From Actinomycetota bacterium (GTDB taxonomy: Bacteria; Actinomycetota; Geothermincolia; Fen-727; Anoxymicrobiaceae): a DNA stretch of 39,017 bases. The stretch covers positions 1 through 39,017 of the forward strand of contig JAGUWJ010000168.1 in NCBI GenBank assembly GCA_020062425.1, given 5' to 3'. The position numbers and the translations under genes were made by a program. Below, one piece after another: positions 2,450-15,225 of this stretch (position 1 is its first letter; each line of letters begins with the position of its first letter). The notes below the pieces were generated by a model. The model was not told the origin of the DNA, searched no databases, and was given only the letters and a program-made list of their open reading frames with translations.

Positions 2450-2523
2450 TGGCTGGGGGAGAAGGATTCGAACCCTCGCTACCTGAGCCAGAGTCAGGTG
2501 TCCTACCACTAGACGATCCCCCA
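2450..2523 (-). tRNA. tRNA-Gln (anticodon CTG), CCA encoded
   Basis: Minus strand TGGGGGATCGTCTAGTGGTAGGACACCTGACTCTGGCTCAGGTAGCGAGGGTTCGAATCCTTCTCCCCCAGCCA; loop CTCTGGC; acceptor TGGGGGA/TCCCCCA. Confidence 0.93.
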
Positions 2524-5488: not shown

Positions 5489-7491
5489 GAGGAAGCCTCC
5501 AGCTCCAGGTTGCCCATCATATCGACAGAGGCGCGCCAGCCCGGAGGTACCACGGTGGTGGTGTCATCCTGCACGATGAGGGCGGGCCCGGAGACGGGTC
5601 TCGAGGGGACGATATCCCATCTCGAGTAGACACGACCGGTGCAAGGGCGGCCGTCAAAATGCATCTCCTTTTCCGCGAGGGGCTCGCCTCGGCTTTGGAC
5701 GGTGGGAGGGGAGGCCTGAAGAGGTGACTCCTGGCGCGGGGCCCGGCAGCTGAGGCGCATGTTGACCACTTCTATCTCTTGATCGGGTCGAGAGTAGCCG
5801 AACTCGCTCGCGAACGCCTGCTCGAAATGAACGCGTATCTCCTGGAGATCCATGCGTGGGGCGGGGACGGAGACCTCGTGCGACTGCCCGCGGTAACGCA
5901 TGTCGAGGCTGGTGCGGAAACTGAGGACGCCCTTGAAGCCCTCTTTGCGCATCTCTGTCGTCGCCTGCGAGCGGAGTTCTTCGAGAGAACGCGACAGCGC
6001 TCCGACGCTTTTTTCGTCCAGCACGCACAGGATCGATCGGGTATGGTCGCGTCCGGGTTCGGCCAGCAGCATGCCCACGCTGGAGAAGAGCCCGGGGTGG
6101 ACGGGCACTATGACCCGAGGCATCTCGAGCCTCTGGGCAAGCTCGCAGGCGTGCATGGGCCCCGCGCCGCCGAAGGCTATGAGAGCGCAATCACGGGGGT
6201 CGTGCCCGCGCTCTAGGCTTATCTTCTTGACCGCACCCTCAGTGTGTGAAAGGGCTATCTCGAGAATTGCTTCGGCGACTTTGACCGCGTTGCGCCCGTA
6301 GGCGAGTTCCTTAAGCGCTCCTGCGCTGCGGTCGGGGAAGAGAGGCATGGTCCCTCCCAGGAACCACGCCGGTTCGAGCCTTCCCAGGGAGACGTTGGCG
6401 TCAGTCACAGTCGGGGACTTTCCCCTTCCGTAGCAGGCGGGTCCCGGATCGGCTCCGGCGCTTTCCGGACCGACCTTGAGTACCCCCGCCCGGTCAAGGA
6501 AAGCAATAGAGCCGCCGCCGGCCCCGATGGTGTGGATGTCAACCATGGGGAGAGCGACCGGAAGACCGCTTATGCGAGTGTCCCTGGTGATGGTAAGACC
6601 CTGGTCGATAAGAGAGACGTCGGTCGAGGTTCCACCCATGTCGAAGCTCACGGCCTTGTCGATTCCCAGGGAACCGGCGAGCCATCGAGCAGCAATCGCG
6701 CCACCGGCAGGGCCGCTCAGAATAAGGTCGGCTGGTCGGCTGCGAGCCAGCCGTGCCGAAACGGTGCCACCTGCGGAGTGCATGAGCCGAAGGCCGCCTC
6801 TCTTTCCGCCGTCTCTCAGCGAAGATTCGAGACGGTCCAGGTATTCCCCCATAACGGGAGCTATATAGGCGTTTATCAATGTGGTGGAGGCGCGCTCGTA
6901 CTCACGGTATTCTGGCAGGATCCGGCACGACAGCGACGTCTCGATGCCCAGGGCGGCGAGCTCTTCTGAGATCATCTCCTCGTGCTCTGGACGCTCGAAG
7001 GAGAAGAGCAGGCATACCGCCGCGGAACGGGCACCGCTCCGCGCGACGGCTCGTGACAGCTCGCGGGCGTCTTTCCTGGTGAGTTCTTTCAGGACCGTGC
7101 CCCCTGCGGTTACGCGCTCGGGGGCTTCAAAGCGGAGAGGCTTTCCCGCCAGCGGCCGAGGTTTGGTAACGGCGAGCGTGTACAGGTCAGGCCGTTCCTG
7201 TCTGCCTATCTCTATGATGTCCGAGAAACCTTCCGTACCGATGAACGCGGTGCGGGAACCCTTCCTCTCGAGGATGGCATTAGTAGCCACAGTAGAGCCG
7301 TGAACCACGGTTGCGCCGGAGGCTCCAGCTCCGCTGATGGCATCAAGGACGCCTTTTTCCGGTTCGTGGGGTGTGGATGGGACCTTCAGGGCGGTCAGCC
7401 CTGCGGTGTGTACGGCTATGAGGTCGGTGATCGTCCCGCCTACGTCAACCGCGACGAGCGAAATATCGCCTCCGCGAACATCCTCGATCAA
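5485..7491 (-). CDS. Hydantoinase/oxoprolinase family protein (HyuA-type)
   Basis: VAVDVGGTITDLIAV, HGSTVATNAILERKG, FDMGGTSTDVSLI, GAGGGSIAF. ORF opens at 7692 but homology begins at LIEDVRGGDISLVAVDVGG; likely TTG start ~7491 with upstream AAAGGA. Overlaps HyuB by 4 nt. Confidence 0.9.
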   Translation of the reverse strand: MIEDVRGGDISLVAVDVGGTITDLIAVHTAGLTALKVPSTPHEPEKGVLDAISGAGASGATVVHGSTVATNAILERKGSRTAFIGTEGFSDIIEIGRQERPDLYTLAVTKPRPLAGKPLRFEAPERVTAGGTVLKELTRKDARELSRAVARSGARSAAVCLLFSFERPEHEEMISEELAALGIETSLSCRILPEYREYERASTTLINAYIAPVMGEYLDRLESSLRDGGKRGGLRLMHSAGGTVSARLARSRPADLILSGPAGGAIAARWLAGSLGIDKAVSFDMGGTSTDVSLIDQGLTITRDTRISGLPVALPMVDIHTIGAGGGSIAFLDRAGVLKVGPESAGADPGPACYGRGKSPTVTDANVSLGRLEPAWFLGGTMPLFPDRSAGALKELAYGRNAVKVAEAILEIALSHTEGAVKKISLERGHDPRDCALIAFGGAGPMHACELAQRLEMPRVIVPVHPGLFSSVGMLLAEPGRDHTRSILCVLDEKSVGALSRSLEELRSQATTEMRKEGFKGVLSFRTSLDMRYRGQSHEVSVPAPRMDLQEIRVHFEQAFASEFGYSRPDQEIEVVNMRLSCRAPRQESPLQASPPTVQSRGEPLAEKEMHFDGRPCTGRVYSRWDIVPSRPVSGPALIVQDDTTTVVPPGWRASVDMMGNLELEASS

Positions 7492-7570
7492 AGTGTCATT
7501 TTCCTTTCGTCTGGCCAGGTGGATATTATAGAATAGCTGCAAGCACCAGCGGAGCAAGGCGGGTGGGACA

Positions 7571-8452
7571 ATGAGCGGCTCTCCCAATAACCGGGAAATC
7601 GTAGAGATGCTGCAGTCGTTCCGTGAAAGCCTGGAGGAAGAAAATCTGCAGGACCTGTACGACGAGGAGATCGAGCAGGTCGCTGAAGGCATCTACGGAG
7701 GACTGACCAGGTGCCTCGATGACGAACTGTTCATGCAGGAGTTCCTGCCGTACGGATATGTCTTCCGTGAGGCAGTGAGGCACGGCATTCGCAGGAGAGA
7801 CAAAGGATTCCCCGTAGAGAAAGTCATGAGAGAGCACATACTGCTGCGCGAGGCGTTCTGGAAGCACAGGAAGGACCAGGTGCAGAGGGTACACGATTTC
7901 GACGTGGAGAAGCGTACTCTACAGTGCTTCAACAGCCTGTTCCAGGCTACGCTGTACGCTTACCACGACAAGAGCCTGAGCATTGAGGTAATGGACGCGC
8001 TCCGGGACCCGCTGACCGGGGTCTTCAACGCGCATTACTTCAATACGCGCCTCGAGGAGGAGTTGAGACGCTCTGAGAGATATTTCAGAGACGTTACGCT
8101 GCTGGTATTCGAGCTCGATTCCAACAGGGCTGACCATTCCGAGGAAGAGGCCGAGCTGCTGCGGGCTTTCGTACGTGTGTTGCGCAGAAACGCGCGCTCG
8201 TCGGACATACCGGCCAGGGTGGACTACTCGAGGTTCGGGATCATCGCACCCGAGACCAAGATGGAGGGCGCCGAGGTCGTGGCTCTCAGGCTCAAGAACA
8301 AGGTGCTCAACTACTTCGCGGACCTTGGAAAGGGGTACGTTGGCGCCGAGGTCGGCGTCGGGCTTGCGTCTTACCCTGACCACGGGTACGATCCCGAGGC
8401 GCTCTTGAAGGAAGCCGACGATATGATGAAGAGGGAGGCCGCGGGACCCTGA
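7571..8452 (+). CDS. RsbRD-N-like/degenerate GGDEF domain protein
   Basis: C-terminal half has DPLTGVFNAHYF...EEELRRSERY and VGLASYPDHGYDPEALLKEADDMM of GGDEF domains, but DYSRF in place of GGDEF. Helical N-terminal half. Confidence 0.75.
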   Translation: MSGSPNNREIVEMLQSFRESLEEENLQDLYDEEIEQVAEGIYGGLTRCLDDELFMQEFLPYGYVFREAVRHGIRRRDKGFPVEKVMREHILLREAFWKHRKDQVQRVHDFDVEKRTLQCFNSLFQATLYAYHDKSLSIEVMDALRDPLTGVFNAHYFNTRLEEELRRSERYFRDVTLLVFELDSNRADHSEEEAELLRAFVRVLRRNARSSDIPARVDYSRFGIIAPETKMEGAEVVALRLKNKVLNYFADLGKGYVGAEVGVGLASYPDHGYDPEALLKEADDMMKREAAGP

Positions 8453-8463
8453 GGCCCGCAGCT

Positions 8464-9567
8464 TTGATGAGCACTGATTTCGAGAGACTGACGAGAAGAG
8501 AGATAAGAGACCTCCCCGTCTACAGCCCCGGGCTCGGCATAGAAGATGTCAAGCGGATATACGGCGTGAGCGAAGTGGTGAAACTCGGCTCCAACGAGAA
8601 CCCGTTGGGGCCGTCTCCGCTCGCGGTGGAAGCGATCAGAGGGGCCGCTGGAACGGTATCCATATACCCCGACGGAGCATGTACGGAGCTGCGTAGTAAG
8701 CTGTCCGAGAAGCTGCGGGTCGCGCCGGAGAGGTTCATCTTCGGCAACGGTACGGATGAGATAATAGATCTCATCTTCTTTGCCTTCTTCAACCAGGGCG
8801 ATGTGGCTGTCATGGGAGATCCCACCTTCTCGTCTTACTTTCTCTCGGGAATGACCATGGGAGCGGCTCTCTCCTATGTGCCGCTCTGCGATCACTGCCA
8901 CCTGGTGGACGAGATGATCGCCGCGGTGGACGAGCGGACCAAGGCGGTCTTCATCGGCACACCGCACAACCCCACTGGTACCATATGCACCGCACGGGAA
9001 CTGGAGCTGGCCCTGGAGGCTCTGCCGCCGGAGGTCCTGCTCGTGTGGGACGAGGCGTACTGCGAGTACGTCGACGATCCCTCGTACCCCGACAGCCTCG
9101 AGTACCTGGACCGATTTCCAAACCTGCTCGTGCTGAGGACCTTCTCCAAGATATACGGCCTGGCGGGCCTCAGAGTGGGCTACGGCATGACTGCCCCGGG
9201 TGTCGTCGACTATCTTGAGAGGGTACGGCCCCCGTTCAACGTGAACAGCCTGGGGCAGGTCGCCGCAATCGCCGCGCTTGATGACGAGGAGCACGTGAAG
9301 AGGAGCAGGGCGACGAACGCGGAGGGCAAGCGCTTCCTGGACGGTGAGTTCCGGCGCCTGGGGCTCGACCCGATTCCCACGCAGGCGAACTTCATACTTG
9401 TCCGGTTCGACGAGGTGACAGAAGACCTGGCCGGAAAGCTTCTGGAGAAGGGGATCATCGTCAGAGATGGAGATTCGCTCGGCTACCCCGGCCACGTGAG
9501 GGTCACCGTAGGAACGCCCGAGCAGAACAGGGCCGTCATCGGAGCCCTGGAGGAGATCCTGGGCTGA
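8464..9567 (+). CDS. hisC: Histidinol-phosphate aminotransferase
   Basis: KLGSNENPLGPSP, GNGTDEIIDL, PHNPTGTICT, DEAYCEY, RTFSKIYGLAGLRVGYG (PLP Lys). Confidence 0.92.
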   Translation: MMSTDFERLTRREIRDLPVYSPGLGIEDVKRIYGVSEVVKLGSNENPLGPSPLAVEAIRGAAGTVSIYPDGACTELRSKLSEKLRVAPERFIFGNGTDEIIDLIFFAFFNQGDVAVMGDPTFSSYFLSGMTMGAALSYVPLCDHCHLVDEMIAAVDERTKAVFIGTPHNPTGTICTARELELALEALPPEVLLVWDEAYCEYVDDPSYPDSLEYLDRFPNLLVLRTFSKIYGLAGLRVGYGMTAPGVVDYLERVRPPFNVNSLGQVAAIAALDDEEHVKRSRATNAEGKRFLDGEFRRLGLDPIPTQANFILVRFDEVTEDLAGKLLEKGIIVRDGDSLGYPGHVRVTVGTPEQNRAVIGALEEILG

Positions 9568-9593: not shown

Positions 9594-10802
9594 TTGAAAG
9601 CGACAATCGTCATTCCCTCGTACTGGGGCAGGCGCTCGACCGAGCCGCTCAACATGGACGACGCGGTGTACGACCACCCCACCCCTCTCGACGTGACGGG
9701 GACTCTAGGGCGGGCTCTCGTGAGTATCGATGTGCTCGAGAACAGGGACTTCAACGTAGTGGTTCTCGCGTGCGCCACCAACCCCGAGATAGCGACGGAC
9801 GTCGAGAGAAGGGTAAGCGAAATAACCGAGCCGGTGCGATCGAAGTTCCCGGTTGCGGTGCTGTCACACTCCTTCGAGCAGCGGATGAAGGAACATGTCA
9901 TTGAGGAGGCCGGACCCGGTGTAGACCCCGACGTGGTCTCGCTCACGGGTTACTCGAACATACGGAACATGTGCCTGCTGGCGGCGGAAATGGCCGGTTC
10001 TGAGGTAGCAGTCCTTTTCGACGACGACGAGGTATACGAGGATCCGCGCTACCTGGACCGGGTGTTCGAGAATATCGGTCGGGAGCGTGACGGGAGGTTT
10101 GTCGGCGCGCTCGCTGGATACTACATAAGGCCGGAGGGAGGCTACCTCATCCCGCCGCCGGATGACTGGTATATGGCGGAGTGGCCGATGGTGCCGCTGA
10201 TGAACGAGTCGTTCGGTCTGATAGGGGAAGGGCCAAGGCTGAAGCCTACCCCGTTCGTCTTCGGCGGCAATATGGTGGTCCATCGCGATGTATGGAGGAA
10301 GGTCGCCTTCGACCCCAACGTACGAAGGGGAGAGGATATCGATTATCTTACCAACTGCAAATTCTTCGACATCGACTTCATGCTGGATAACGAGCTGTCA
10401 ATAAGGCACCTGCCGCCGTCCAGCACGGTCCCGGCCTGGCAGCATTTCCGGGAGAACATCTACAGATTCATCTACGCGCGCGAGAAGCTGGCAGGGCAGG
10501 TGCCGACGGAAGGACTCAGGATGGTCGATGTCAGCGAGCTCGACCCGTACCCCGGCAGGTGCATGCGGGACGACCTGGAGGACATGATATTCAAGACCTG
10601 TGTATTGCAGGGACTCTTCTATCTGGACAGGGGAGACGAGCTCGGGTTTACCGAGAGCATGCGGAACGTGAAGCATGCCCGTTTCGACGCACGGCCGCAG
10701 CACGACCCCTTCACCTGGTACCTCGAGTTCAACCGGCGCTGGACCCGGCTGCTGGAGTTCCTCGCCGCCGACGACACGTTATCCCGCGAGCTTCCGTTCT
10801 AG
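9594..10802 (+). CDS. Putative glycosyltransferase (GT-A type)
   Basis: MKATIVIPSYWGR N-terminus, acidic motif FDDDEVYEDPRYLD, FVFGGNMVVHRDVW. Confidence 0.65.
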   Translation: MKATIVIPSYWGRRSTEPLNMDDAVYDHPTPLDVTGTLGRALVSIDVLENRDFNVVVLACATNPEIATDVERRVSEITEPVRSKFPVAVLSHSFEQRMKEHVIEEAGPGVDPDVVSLTGYSNIRNMCLLAAEMAGSEVAVLFDDDEVYEDPRYLDRVFENIGRERDGRFVGALAGYYIRPEGGYLIPPPDDWYMAEWPMVPLMNESFGLIGEGPRLKPTPFVFGGNMVVHRDVWRKVAFDPNVRRGEDIDYLTNCKFFDIDFMLDNELSIRHLPPSSTVPAWQHFRENIYRFIYAREKLAGQVPTEGLRMVDVSELDPYPGRCMRDDLEDMIFKTCVLQGLFYLDRGDELGFTESMRNVKHARFDARPQHDPFTWYLEFNRRWTRLLEFLAADDTLSRELPF

Positions 10803-11035: not shown

Positions 11036-12277
11036 ATGACTGTTTTAGAAAAAGCAGTGATAGATGACCTCGAAGCGATAGGGAGTGCCGACATACTCGT
11101 CGGCATCCCTTCTTTCCGCAACGCAGATACAATCGCACATGTGGTCAAGCAAGCTGCTCATGGGCTCGTAGAGTATTTTCCGGGTATGAAGCCCGTGCTC
11201 GTCAACTCGGACGGCGGCTCAACCGACCGCACCAGGGACGTCGTTCTCTCTACTGAAGTGCCCTCGCAAGTCAGAAAGATAGTAACGCCATACAGAGGTA
11301 TCGCCGGTAAGGGAAGCGCCTTCAAGACGATCTTCGAGATAGCGACCAGGCTCGGGGTGAAGGCCTGCATAGTCGTCGATTCGGACCTTCGCAGCATAAC
11401 TCCCGAATGGATGAAGAACCTGGGCGGACCTGTGCTGGAAGAGAAGTACGACTTCGTGACCCCGCACTACCTCCGCTACAAGTATGACGGAACGATCACC
11501 AACGCCCTGGCATATCCCCTGACCCGGGCGCTTTACGGCAAGCGCATACGCCAGCCCATCGGCGGCGACTTCGGGTTTTCCGGTGAACTGGCGGCGGTCT
11601 ACTCGGAGCGGGACGTCTGGGAGACGGACATCGCCAGGTTCGGCATAGACATCTGGATGACCACCCTTGCTGTAAACGAGAGTTTCCGCATCTGCCAGGC
11701 TTGCATGGGTCTGAAGCTGCACAACAACAAGGACCCCGGCAGCGACCTCGCCGCCATGTTCCGCCAGGTGACCGGCACCATGTTCGACCTCATGAGGACG
11801 TACGAGGAAAAATGGATGGAAGTCCATAAGTCTACCCCCGCGCCGGTCCTGGGGGAGGAGTGCAAGGAGGAACCTGACGTCGCGGAGGTCTCCTACGAGA
11901 ACCTGCTGGACCACTTCCGCAAAGGCTTCGAGGAGCTTGGTGACGTATGGCGGATCATCCTTCGCCGGGAGAACTTCCGCCAGGTGGAGGCGGCTTACAG
12001 GGCGAGCGACGAACAATTCGAGTTCTCCAGCGGCCTGTGGGTCCGCGTGGTCTACGACTTCGCCATCGGGTATAACTTCGGGCCGCTCTGCTCGGAGGAC
12101 GTCATCGACGCACTGCTTGCCCTTTTCTGCGCGCGCACGGCGCGCTTCGTGAGAAAGACTGAAAACCTCACCTCCTACGAGGCTGAGATAGAAGTAGAGC
12201 GTACAGCGGAGAACTTCGAGGTGCTCAAGGATTACCTGCGGTTCTACTGGAACGCCGCTCAAGAAGCCTGCTCCTGA
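11036..12277 (+). CDS. Glycosyltransferase, GT81-like (glucosylglycerate / glucosyl-3-phosphoglycerate synthase-like)
   Basis: GIPSFRNADTIAHVV, VNSDGGSTDRT, GKGSAFKTIFEIA, VVDSDLRSITPEWM, RALYGKRIRQPIGGDFGFSGELA, FGIDIWMTT match remembered GT81 members. Confidence 0.75.
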   Translation: MTVLEKAVIDDLEAIGSADILVGIPSFRNADTIAHVVKQAAHGLVEYFPGMKPVLVNSDGGSTDRTRDVVLSTEVPSQVRKIVTPYRGIAGKGSAFKTIFEIATRLGVKACIVVDSDLRSITPEWMKNLGGPVLEEKYDFVTPHYLRYKYDGTITNALAYPLTRALYGKRIRQPIGGDFGFSGELAAVYSERDVWETDIARFGIDIWMTTLAVNESFRICQACMGLKLHNNKDPGSDLAAMFRQVTGTMFDLMRTYEEKWMEVHKSTPAPVLGEECKEEPDVAEVSYENLLDHFRKGFEELGDVWRIILRRENFRQVEAAYRASDEQFEFSSGLWVRVVYDFAIGYNFGPLCSEDVIDALLALFCARTARFVRKTENLTSYEAEIEVERTAENFEVLKDYLRFYWNAAQEACS

Positions 12278-12298: not shown

Positions 12299-13300
12299 TC
12301 AAGTCCCGACCTCATTGACCACGTTATCCAGCTTCTCGCCCTTCAGAGCCTTCACCACGTTCAGCAGGGAAGCTGTTATGATGCGTAGCCTCGACTCGTT
12401 GGAGGCGCCGGCGGTGTGGGGTGTGAGGATGGTGTTGGGTGCACCGATGAGGGGGTTATCGGGTCTTATCGGCTCGTCGACGTACACGTCCACAACAGCT
12501 CCGCCCAGGCGGTTCTCCCTCAGGGCCGAAGCCAGCGCGCGCTCGTCGACCACCTCACCCCTGGCCACGTTCACCAGCACGGCAGTACTCTTCATGAGAT
12601 TTATGCGCCTCGCGTCGAGAAGGTTTGCCGTTTCCTCGGTAAGGGGAGCGTGGAGGCTCACCACGTCTGCCGATGCCAGAAGCTCGTCGAGGTCCAAGAA
12701 GCTCACCCCGAGCTCCCGCTCATCTTCGGAGGGAAGCCTCACCACGTCGTAATAGACGATGGAGCAGCCGAATACACAGGCCCGCGCCGCGACCTCGCGA
12801 CCAATGCGGCCCATGCCGACGATGTCCAGCACCTTGCCGCAAAGCTCGAAGACGCCGTGTCCCGCCATCTCGTCCTGGGCCCATTCGGCACGCTGGGTCT
12901 TCTCGTTCTGCAGAATGAGTTTTTTCAGGCACGCCAGCGCGCCCAGGATGGTATGCTCGGCTACCGCCACGGCGTTAGCTCCGGCTGCGTTTGCGACGGG
13001 GATGCCCTGGCGCGCCGCCTCTTCGACGTCGAGATGCTGGTAGCCAACCGACGGCTGCTGGATAAGAAGGCACGGAGCGGCCGCCCTCATGGCTTCGGCG
13101 TCCATCCCAATGTGGAACGAGTAGTCGCCGACGATTATGTCAGCGCCGGCCACTTCTTCCAGGAACTCCTCCCGGTTTGCGCCCTCGAAAGAGCGGACCT
13201 CGTACTCCCCGTGGTCGTCGCTCGCGACTACCGCACTGATCAGGGACCTCACGAGTTCCGCTGGAAGCGGCGACAGGACCAGGATTCTCTTTACAGCCAT
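12299..13300 (-). CDS. D-isomer-specific 2-hydroxyacid dehydrogenase
   Basis: DIVGMGRIGREVAARA Rossmann motif, VNVARGEVVDERAL, HTAGASNESRLR; likely start at MAVKRILVLSPLP (13300). ORF open to 13348. Confidence 0.88.
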   Translation of the reverse strand: MAVKRILVLSPLPAELVRSLISAVVASDDHGEYEVRSFEGANREEFLEEVAGADIIVGDYSFHIGMDAEAMRAAAPCLLIQQPSVGYQHLDVEEAARQGIPVANAAGANAVAVAEHTILGALACLKKLILQNEKTQRAEWAQDEMAGHGVFELCGKVLDIVGMGRIGREVAARACVFGCSIVYYDVVRLPSEDERELGVSFLDLDELLASADVVSLHAPLTEETANLLDARRINLMKSTAVLVNVARGEVVDERALASALRENRLGGAVVDVYVDEPIRPDNPLIGAPNTILTPHTAGASNESRLRIITASLLNVVKALKGEKLDNVVNEVGT

Positions 13301-13360
13301 ATCCATCCCTTGACTCCCAACCTTCAATGAGAAGACACCGCAGTTCAAAGGATCGTCCGT

Positions 13361-13389
13361 AAAAAGCAGAAAGCCCCTTTCGGGGCTTT
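13361..13389 (-). terminator. Intrinsic terminator of the Cys-peptide transcript
   Basis: Minus strand AAAGCCCC-GAAA-GGGGCTTT (13389-13370), GAAA tetraloop, then CTGCTTTTT (T-run at 13365-13361). Follows the TAG of the 20-aa ORF by a few nt. Confidence 0.8.
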
Positions 13390-13394
13390 TTCCG

Positions 13395-13457
13395 CTAGCA
13401 GCTCTTTGAGCACTTGCAGGTGCTCGAGGCCTTCTTGGCCAGCTTCACGATTTTCAC
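13395..13457 (-). CDS. 20-aa Cys-rich micropeptide, candidate RiPP precursor
   Basis: GTG 13457 to TAG 13397-13395: M(V)KIVKLAKKASSTCKCSKSC*. SD GAAGGGGGGG just upstream; no in-frame alternative ATG/GTG/TTG before an upstream TAA. Below the ORF-track size cutoff. Confidence 0.65.
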   Translation of the reverse strand: MKIVKLAKKASSTCKCSKSC

Positions 13458-13493
13458 CGTGACCCCCCCTTCTGGTTGGGTAATGCACAGACA

Positions 13494-13522
13494 ATATTAC
13501 ATCCACCAGGGCTCGTTTTCAA
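13494..13522 (-). promoter_or_regulatory. Putative sigma70 promoter of the Cys-peptide gene
   Basis: Minus strand TTGAAA (13522-13517) - 17 nt - TAATAT (13499-13494), about 40 nt upstream of the GTG. Confidence 0.65.
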
Positions 13523-13608
13523 CGCCGGAAGCAGAAGTGCGAGATGCAAAACCAGACGACTTGACTTGCGCATCGGAGATGCCTGTTAATAGTCGAGGAG
13601 GTGAGGGC

Positions 13609-13836
13609 ATGGCCCGTTTCGATGGTTTCCAGTCGAGGGTGGGTCCGTTCGTGAGGGGAGAGCTCAACATGAATGACGACCCCGAGGAGTTCAAGCGCCT
13701 CATCTGCGCCGATTGCGAGTTCTTCACACCGGGGGAGGACGAAGAGCTCGAGTGCGGATGCTACCACATCCTGATGCGCCTCTTAGAGAACGGGCGCGTG
13801 ACACTGGAGCAGCTCTCTCGTGACCTCGAGGGCTAG
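13609..13836 (+). CDS. 75-aa CxxC/CxC protein, upstream partner of radical SAM enzyme
   Basis: ATG 13609 with SD GAGGAGGTGAGGGC; MARFDGFQSRVGPFVRGELNMNDDPEEFKRLICADCEFFTPGEDEELECGCYHILMRLLENGRVTLEQLSRDLEG. The 13414 upstream extension in the ORF track is antisense to the peptide gene and unlikely to be coding. Confidence 0.8.
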   Translation: MARFDGFQSRVGPFVRGELNMNDDPEEFKRLICADCEFFTPGEDEELECGCYHILMRLLENGRVTLEQLSRDLEG

Positions 13837-14998
13837 GTTCCTGGGGTTGGGCAGGAGCTTCTTCCTGAAAGAACTGGAGTACCCTGCCGTATACGACACG
13901 TCGAGCGATGAGCTGTACCAGGTCGATGCCAACGGTCTCCGGGAACTCGCCCGCGCGGATGGGTCACTCGATCGGGCGGACGCAAGGTTTCCACGAGAGT
14001 TCCTCGATTTCTGCCTCGAGGAGGGCGTCCTGGTGGCAGGAGACAGCCCCTGGAGCCGAGAGGTCACCGTAGGTCGAAACGAGCGGCCGTCTCTCAGGTA
14101 CCTCATGATAGAGATCACAAGGAAGTGCAACCTCTCATGCAGGCACTGCTACCTGGGAGAGTCCAGCGGGATCGATATGAGCGTGAAGACGCTCGAGAAG
14201 GTACTGGATGAGTTCGAGCAGATGGGCGGCCTTCGCCTGATCGTCACCGGCGGCGAACCGCTGCTCCACCCGGAGTTCGAGAAGATAAGCTCCCTGTGTG
14301 CCGGCAGGTCCTTTCGCACGATCCTGGTGACCAACGGGACTCTTATAGATGAGCGGACTGCGCGCGCCCTCGAGTTCCAGGAGGTGCAGATATCAATAGA
14401 CGGGACCGAGGCGGGGCACGACTTCATGAGGGGGAAGGGGTGCTTCAAGGAGGCTTTGCGGGGCCTGGAAAACCTCAAATATGCGGAATCCGACGTCTCC
14501 GTTGCGACCATGGTCCATCAGCGTAACATCGAAGAGCTGGATGCGCTGGAAACGCTGGTCAGGAGCTTTGGGGCCGTATCGTGGACGCTAGACGTCCCCT
14601 GTGAGTCCGGAAGGCTGGCCGACGGGGCCGATACCGTCATGCCGGACCTGGCGGAAGCGGCTCGCGAGATGGATAGGGCGTTCGGCTCAGAGCAGCACGA
14701 GCCATCGGGGGATCACGCCTGCGGGGCACACCTGGCGCTGGTCAAGCCTGACGGGGATATGGTCAAGTGCGGTTTCTACGAAGATGTTTCAGGCGGCAGC
14801 ATCGAGCGGGGCTTGAGAGAGGCCTGGCTCAGGCTTCCGCGCATGAGGATCTGCGAGTTGGATTGCTACTGCGACCACCTGCAAGAGTGCGGGGGAGGAT
14901 GCAGGTTCCGCGCGGAGACGCATTTCGGCAGGAACGGGCCCGACCCGTTGAAGTGCATCCAGTTCGGTGTGAGCCCGCCCGGACGAGGTGCGTCTTAA
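13820..14998 (+). CDS. Radical SAM/SPASM-domain protein with PqqD/RRE-like N-terminus
   Basis: Radical SAM ITRKCNLSCRHCYLG (CX3CX2C), VTGGEPLLHPEF; C-terminal Cys cluster CG...KCGF...ICELDCYCDHLQECGGGC...KC; N-terminus FFLKELEYPAVYDTSSDELYQVDANGLRELARADGS...FLDFCLEEGVLVAGD. GTG start overlaps preceding ORF. Confidence 0.85.
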   Translation: MTSRARFLGLGRSFFLKELEYPAVYDTSSDELYQVDANGLRELARADGSLDRADARFPREFLDFCLEEGVLVAGDSPWSREVTVGRNERPSLRYLMIEITRKCNLSCRHCYLGESSGIDMSVKTLEKVLDEFEQMGGLRLIVTGGEPLLHPEFEKISSLCAGRSFRTILVTNGTLIDERTARALEFQEVQISIDGTEAGHDFMRGKGCFKEALRGLENLKYAESDVSVATMVHQRNIEELDALETLVRSFGAVSWTLDVPCESGRLADGADTVMPDLAEAAREMDRAFGSEQHEPSGDHACGAHLALVKPDGDMVKCGFYEDVSGGSIERGLREAWLRLPRMRICELDCYCDHLQECGGGCRFRAETHFGRNGPDPLKCIQFGVSPPGRGAS

Positions 14999-15184
14999 TG
15001 TGGAAAAGCCGAATGGGCGAGCACTCCACCACAATATATTGAGTCTTAACCTTCAATAATCCCCAATATATTCCACAAATTAACATCTCATCCCAATATT
15101 CCGGGTAAGACACCAAGATTTTCCGCAGAAATCGCTAAAGAAAGTGGTCTTTTGTAGCCGATAGTGTTGCAAAGGGGCGAGTAA

Positions 15185-15214
15185 TGGTGTAAAGTGGTGA
15201 AGCGTGGAGAGGTG
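15185..15214 (+). promoter_or_regulatory. Putative MraZ operator (three 10-bp TGG repeats)
   Basis: TGGTGTAAAG / TGGTGAAGCG / TGGAGAGGTG, 10-bp period, immediately upstream of mraZ. Confidence 0.65.
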
Positions 15215-15225
15215 AGAGGTAAGCT

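Follow-up and report, generated by a model that had tools for sequence, protein, structure and literature searches.

The window, i.e., the whole stretch of 39,017 nucleotides that was analysed (contig JAGUWJ010000168.1 of the Actinomycetota assembly GCA_020062425.1, family Anoxymicrobiaceae), carries a compact group of three genes, referred to here as A, B, and C. Gene A, encoding a very short peptide, is divergent from the B-C pair, and a dehydrogenase gene follows it on its own strand. The features of the locus are as follows:

12299-13348, minus strand (that of gene A, beyond its terminator): 2-hydroxyacid dehydrogenase gene, SerA-like
13361-13389, minus strand: intrinsic terminator of gene A, AAAGCCCC GAAA GGGGCTTT plus a T-rich tail
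13395-13457, minus strand: gene A, a conserved open reading frame for the 20-aa peptide MKIVKLAKKASSTCKCSKSC, the proposed RiPP precursor
about 13470-13463, minus strand: Shine-Dalgarno (SD) sequence of gene A, AGGGGGGG, read from the sequence
13494-13522, minus strand: promoter of gene A, with -35 TTGAAA (13522-13517), a 17-nt spacer, and -10 TAATAT (13499-13494)
13595-13603, plus strand: SD sequence of gene B, GAGGAGGTG, read directly
13609-13836, plus strand: gene B, a 75-aa acidic helical protein (alignment A1, AlphaFold)
13820-14998, plus strand: gene C, a radical SAM/SPASM enzyme (Radical_SAM PF04055, 3e-21)

Gene A starts at a GTG (13457-13455) and stops at a TAG (13397-13395); its terminator is an 8-bp stem with a GAAA loop (hairpin at 13389-13370), followed by the T-rich tail. 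When the sequence was re-read, the promoter, SD, GTG, stop codon, and hairpin that an earlier note had assigned to this gene were each found in place. The layout proposed for the peptide is a basic leader of about residues 1-10 followed by the core TCKCSKSC. Taken alone, the promoter and terminator pattern is weak evidence for a gene, as a scan gave two promoter-like sites (overlapping versions of a single site) against 0.6 expected, and two terminator-like sites against 2.2 expected; that gene A is real is decided by its conservation. An Rfam scan of the window matched no RNA family at the gene A locus, and its only matches were two tRNA genes elsewhere (2254-2328 and 2453-2523, minus strand).

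Peptide A is conserved as a family of 20-21 residues with the consensus M[KR]IxKxx[KR][KR]x[SG][SG]TCKCxxSC(G), with three cysteines (four in a few copies), a charge of +3 to +7, and one copy per genome; Phe, Tyr, and Trp are absent from every copy. Examples found beside orthologues of C include MRIVKVAKKASSTCKCSKSC, MRITKIPRRKGGTCKCNKSCG, MIKKIVRRKGGTCKCNKSCG, MKIRKSGKKSSSTCKCSSSC, and MKIVKVSTSSSSTCKCSGSC, each with a strong SD. Most relatives have ATG as the aligned start codon, and the SD reads AAGGAGG or GGGAGG at the same position as in the window; about 33-39 nt 5′ of the start, a TATAAT-like -10 element is present in most members of the class to which the window belongs. Downstream of the stop codon, a stable hairpin is present in nearly all copies, and its stem sequence differs between clades. 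Across the 28 tabulated copies, the core residues T, C, K, C, S, and C do not vary. The pattern first used for searching accounts for part of this invariance; in the other two clades, whose copies were retrieved with the looser CKC-x3-C-stop, the T and S are present all the same. The core codons switch synonymously (ACC/ACT, TGC/TGT, and AAG/AAA, with AGY/TCC at the invariant Ser), indicating that the peptide itself is under selection. Searches of whole genomes agree: TCKCxxSC gave one match each in 22 of the 32 genomes of the window's class, vs. a single match in total for a reversed control pattern. A relaxed peptide pattern matched 63 genomes across the phylum; among 20 further sites inspected, the five with cassettes were real, and the other 15 were chance matches or lay within other genes.

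Peptide A has no significant match in NCBIfam or Pfam, the NCBIfam precursor families included; a thiopeptide-precursor match for one copy (0.021) fell below the cut-off and was discarded. In the literature search, no paper combining TCKC and radical SAM was found, and the titles and abstract openings of the papers retrieved contain no description of the peptide.

Gene C encodes an enzyme with a radical SAM cluster motif, C103-x3-C107-x2-C110, and with the SPASM cysteines C301, C317, C351, C353, C357, C361, and C379, all of which except C353 fall in invariant columns of an alignment of 26 sequences (alignment A2). Its AlphaFold model (pLDDT 92) retrieved SuiB, SkfB, then an anaerobic sulfatase-maturating enzyme (anSME), and ChlB in Foldseek, and the matches to the RiPP maturases SuiB, SkfB, and ChlB cover most of the enzyme. 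Residues of about 6-76 form a PqqD/RRE-like domain, for which the evidence is weak but comes from independent sources. Only a few members show significant similarity to PqqD (TIGR03859 at 1.4e-4, the best of three members; PF05402 at 0.0045, in two members), the window enzyme itself having no PqqD match, and a profile of the domain had no meaningful match among PDB sequences; the full-length fold match to SuiB takes in this domain. The enzyme fits no curated NCBIfam maturase, the best of 90 matches scoring 105 bits vs. a cut-off of 500.

Gene B, which the earlier note had not recognized as part of the group, lies directly upstream of C in nearly every locus, and in the window the start of C overlaps its end by 17 nt. 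The residues C33-x2-C36-x-F38 and C49 are invariant in alignment A1. The protein matches no family in Pfam or NCBIfam with any significance, including the PqqD and MftB models, and its AlphaFold model is helical (pLDDT 89) with no fold match in the PDB by Foldseek. Most B proteins are acidic (-2 to -14); two, one of them from the third clade, are not, and charge matching between A and B is therefore not universal.

The association of A, B, and C is constant. Orthologues of C (34-62% identity) were found in 29 genomes, which fall into three separate clades of the phylum, the window's class among them. A profile search with B returned 29 of 398 Actinomycetota genomes; every one of these carries a C orthologue, and B was found in those genomes only. 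Gene A is present in all 29, complete in 28 and in the last cut by a contig end that falls inside the gene (atgcacatcaagaaggtagccaagaaggctgcaa, after ATGCACATCAAGAAGGTAGCCAAGAAGGCTGCAA). Conversely, A, B, and the C orthologue are all absent from nine genomes of the window's class. Ten more genomes with B belong to the second clade, and nine of them have A. In the tenth, which is 69% complete, B is interrupted by a stop codon (L161; G468:C145, 2848-3018) and neither C nor A was found nearby, an apparent case of joint cassette decay. The earlier note had held that its reading of A as a RiPP precursor would fall if the peptide, its SD, and its cysteine pattern were not conserved beside orthologous radical SAM genes; overall, the peptide, SD, and C-x-C-x3-C pattern are kept in 38 of the 39 genomes bearing B, and that reading is supported. 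A single-sequence search of genome contigs with enzyme C gave one 27% match in Methanolobus, which has no such peptide beside it and is not a C orthologue, and a search of plasmids returned only generic maturases, e.g., MftC and NirJ. WhiB proteins point to Actinomycetota as the phylum: two of its genomes, 8-9 Mb in size, have 8-11 of them, and among 14 control genomes only one (Corynebacterium glutamicum) was positive. WhiB is absent from the window's genome and the other carriers tested, which fits deep-branching anaerobic classes.

The whole A-B-C unit measures less than 1.7 kb, and its internal arrangement and surroundings differ between clades. In one clade gene A lies upstream of B and divergent from it; in the others it follows C in the same direction. 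The gap is 6-580 nt in intact loci, and in one genome (G292) the open frame of C continues into A. In two genomes, G019 (L063) and G024 (L068), A is found on a contig other than that of B and C; in G019 at least, where the contig is 48.6 kb long, linkage is not needed. Both the neighbours and the orientation vary by clade. In the window's family the neighbours are the 2-hydroxyacid dehydrogenase gene and the mraZ/dcw cluster, and in another group they are PAS kinases and IS200-like transposases; the second clade has cytochromes and ferredoxin-like proteins there, and the third has proteins that, read from sequence, resemble transaldolase and transketolase.

Some further observations concern these surroundings. 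The IS200-like transposase family adjoins the cassette in three genomes of genus g16 (L040, at 7321-8355; L037; L036), and in G024 the gene order is different. In the window, an AT-rich intergenic stretch (15000-15225) separates C from mraZ, the start of the dcw cluster; AAAGTGGT-like words are repeated directly 5′ of mraZ and resemble MraZ operator boxes, and a strict GTGG-N5-GTGG search gave no match in that stretch. On the other side of gene A, a 402-aa protein without a Pfam match (9594-10802) lies near genes for a glycosyltransferase-2 (11036-12277), a GGDEF protein (7571-8452), and an aminotransferase (8464-9567).

The comparisons establish that A is real and conserved, that it constantly accompanies B and C, how C is built from its domains, and that A has its own promoter, SD, and terminator; the reading of the cassette as a RiPP system is well supported. 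Very probably, A, B, and C are a radical-SAM RiPP cassette in which C modifies the core of A, and their family is absent from the libraries searched. In the proposed pathway, the strong transcription unit of A would supply a precursor of 20-21 residues, the basic N-terminal segment of which (M[KR]IxK...) would be held by the PqqD/RRE-like domain fused to C. The enzyme would cleave SAM reductively at its CX3CX2C cluster and, by way of the SPASM auxiliary clusters, oxidatively modify the core TCKCxxSC. The product may contain one or more thioether bridges from Cys to an aliphatic carbon, with Thr, Lys, or Ser as the acceptor. Such cross-linking is our leading guess, to which we give an even chance by analogy; among the chemistries considered it appears the likeliest because the core has three Cys, no aromatic residue, and Thr, Lys, and Ser that are likewise invariant. 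Alternatively, A may undergo other oxidations or epimerisation, or the product may bind metal. B would act as a dedicated partner, either as a carrier of the basic peptide or with an electron, metal, or sulfur function. Points that run counter to this scheme include the size of the precursor, which at 20 aa, about 10 of them in the leader, is among the shorter ones of RiPPs, and the fact that A is unlinked to C in G019 and G024.

Many radical-SAM RiPPs are bacteriocins or signals, and A, being cationic, might likewise give rise to a secreted antimicrobial or signalling RiPP. However, no transporter, exporter, protease, or immunity gene recurs near the cassette in the loci of the clades compared, and the core, unlike those of bacteriocins, is nearly constant over three clades and occurs in one copy per genome. 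A secreted product is therefore unlikely, and the near-constant core, the single copy, and the missing transporter, protease, and immunity genes suggest instead an intracellular product that is cofactor-like or metal-binding. A more specific proposal is that anaerobic, deep-branching actinobacteria make a new intracellular, peptide-derived cofactor that is redox- or metal-active through cross-linked Cys, with B as a new type of dedicated carrier or activator; this is put forward tentatively, as a possibility in which our confidence is limited.

Alternatively, A might remain unmodified and serve C or B as a Cys-rich metal- or cluster-binding peptide, e.g., as a metallochaperone or as a ligand of an auxiliary cluster. 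The C-x-C-x3-C core could plausibly bind a metal, its three Cys are invariant, and B likewise has three invariant cysteines. Yet the enzyme that accompanies A is a radical SAM/SPASM protein bearing a PqqD/RRE-like domain, a layout typical of peptide-modifying enzymes; a strong transcription unit of its own is expected of a substrate made in excess; and the Thr, Lys, and Ser of the core are as invariant as the Cys, which metal binding alone does not demand. We consider an unmodified peptide decidedly unlikely. The arrangement in the window, where a short Cys/Ser-rich ORF is followed by a terminator and then by the SerA-like gene on the same strand, could also recall an attenuation leader peptide that senses Cys or Ser and controls the dehydrogenase gene at 12299-13348. 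In other clades, however, the gene past the terminator is a different one or is on the opposite strand, and A stays with B and C; A is kept as a peptide, with synonymous change, even where it is unlinked, and it is missing where B and C are missing. Because neighbours and orientation change between clades, a leader acting in cis is excluded, and we regard attenuation as very improbable. Finally, that a small RNA is the conserved element and the ORF incidental, as the compact promoter-to-terminator unit with its stable hairpin might suggest, is scarcely credible, since conservation tracks the reading frame and the amino acids (including codon-family switches at the invariant Ser), the terminator stem is not kept between clades, and Rfam is silent at the locus.

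As a radical-SAM RiPP system, the cassette would add a family whose precursor is among the shortest and whose core is near-invariant, with a partner protein that matches no known family. The family is defined by clean three-gene co-occurrence in deep-branching actinobacteria; we know of no characterised RiPP from these lineages. At less than 1.7 kb, the unit is small enough for co-expression to probe its chemistry directly. Should the product prove to be a cofactor, a hidden piece of anaerobic metabolism would come to light, and PQQ and mycofactocin would be joined by another RiPP cofactor made from a short precursor. More generally, 20-codon genes that are skipped by annotation can be recovered through their phyletic link to maturases.

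Several known systems come close to the cassette. In SCIFF/ranthipeptide systems (CteA-CteB, PDB 5wgg; PapB), too, a radical SAM/SPASM enzyme is encoded next to a short precursor that contains Cys; the enzyme has an N-terminal RRE, to which the PqqD/RRE-like domain of C may correspond, and the C profile matches CteB over the core at 2.6e-15. However, a SCIFF precursor has six Cys in about 45 residues, vs. three Cys in eight residues in the 20-21 aa of A, and the CX3D/CX3E repeats of PapA-like precursors do not occur in A. C scores 63.9 bits with the PapB model (cut-off 340), and its 25 best matches do not include the SCIFF maturase model; to our knowledge, a gene like B is not part of SCIFF systems. 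Membership in the SCIFF class, which the earlier note had brought up as an example, is not supported by any of these comparisons, with the enzyme far below every NCBIfam maturase cut-off and the peptide without a precursor-family match. The sactipeptide maturases (SkfB, 6efn; StsB; AlbA) share with C the fold, SPASM clusters, and, if A is its substrate, Cys-containing substrates, SkfB being both a fold match (E 2.3e-15) and the best sequence match in the PDB (7.9e-23). C nevertheless falls short of the AlbA (62 vs. 850 bits) and StsB (80 vs. 625 bits) cut-offs, the precursor is unrelated, and exporter and immunity genes are not part of the cassette. The best fold match of all is SuiB (5v1t), a Lys-Trp cyclase of the StrB/streptide type, which C resembles in its putative N-terminal RRE, radical SAM core, and SPASM domain alike. 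The absence of Phe, Tyr, and Trp from A makes the Lys-Trp cross-linking of SuiB impossible, and it excludes the Glu-Tyr chemistry of PqqE and the Tyr-decarboxylating chemistry of MftC as well. The PQQ and mycofactocin systems (PqqA/D/E and MftA/B/C) differ from the cassette in their substrate residues (Glu and Tyr, and a C-terminal Val-Tyr, respectively), which A lacks, and in score (54 vs. 381 bits for PqqE; 97.5 vs. 265 bits for MftC, which is among the closest family models to C). They nonetheless resemble it in having a very short, highly conserved precursor, an RRE (putative in the cassette) with a radical SAM/SPASM enzyme, and a small partner gene, and in a cofactor-like pattern of conservation. 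With radical-SAM RiPPs at large, the cassette shares a conserved short precursor gene and an enzyme that bears CX3CX2C and SPASM/twitch cysteines, and its standing as a new family within this known kind is well supported.
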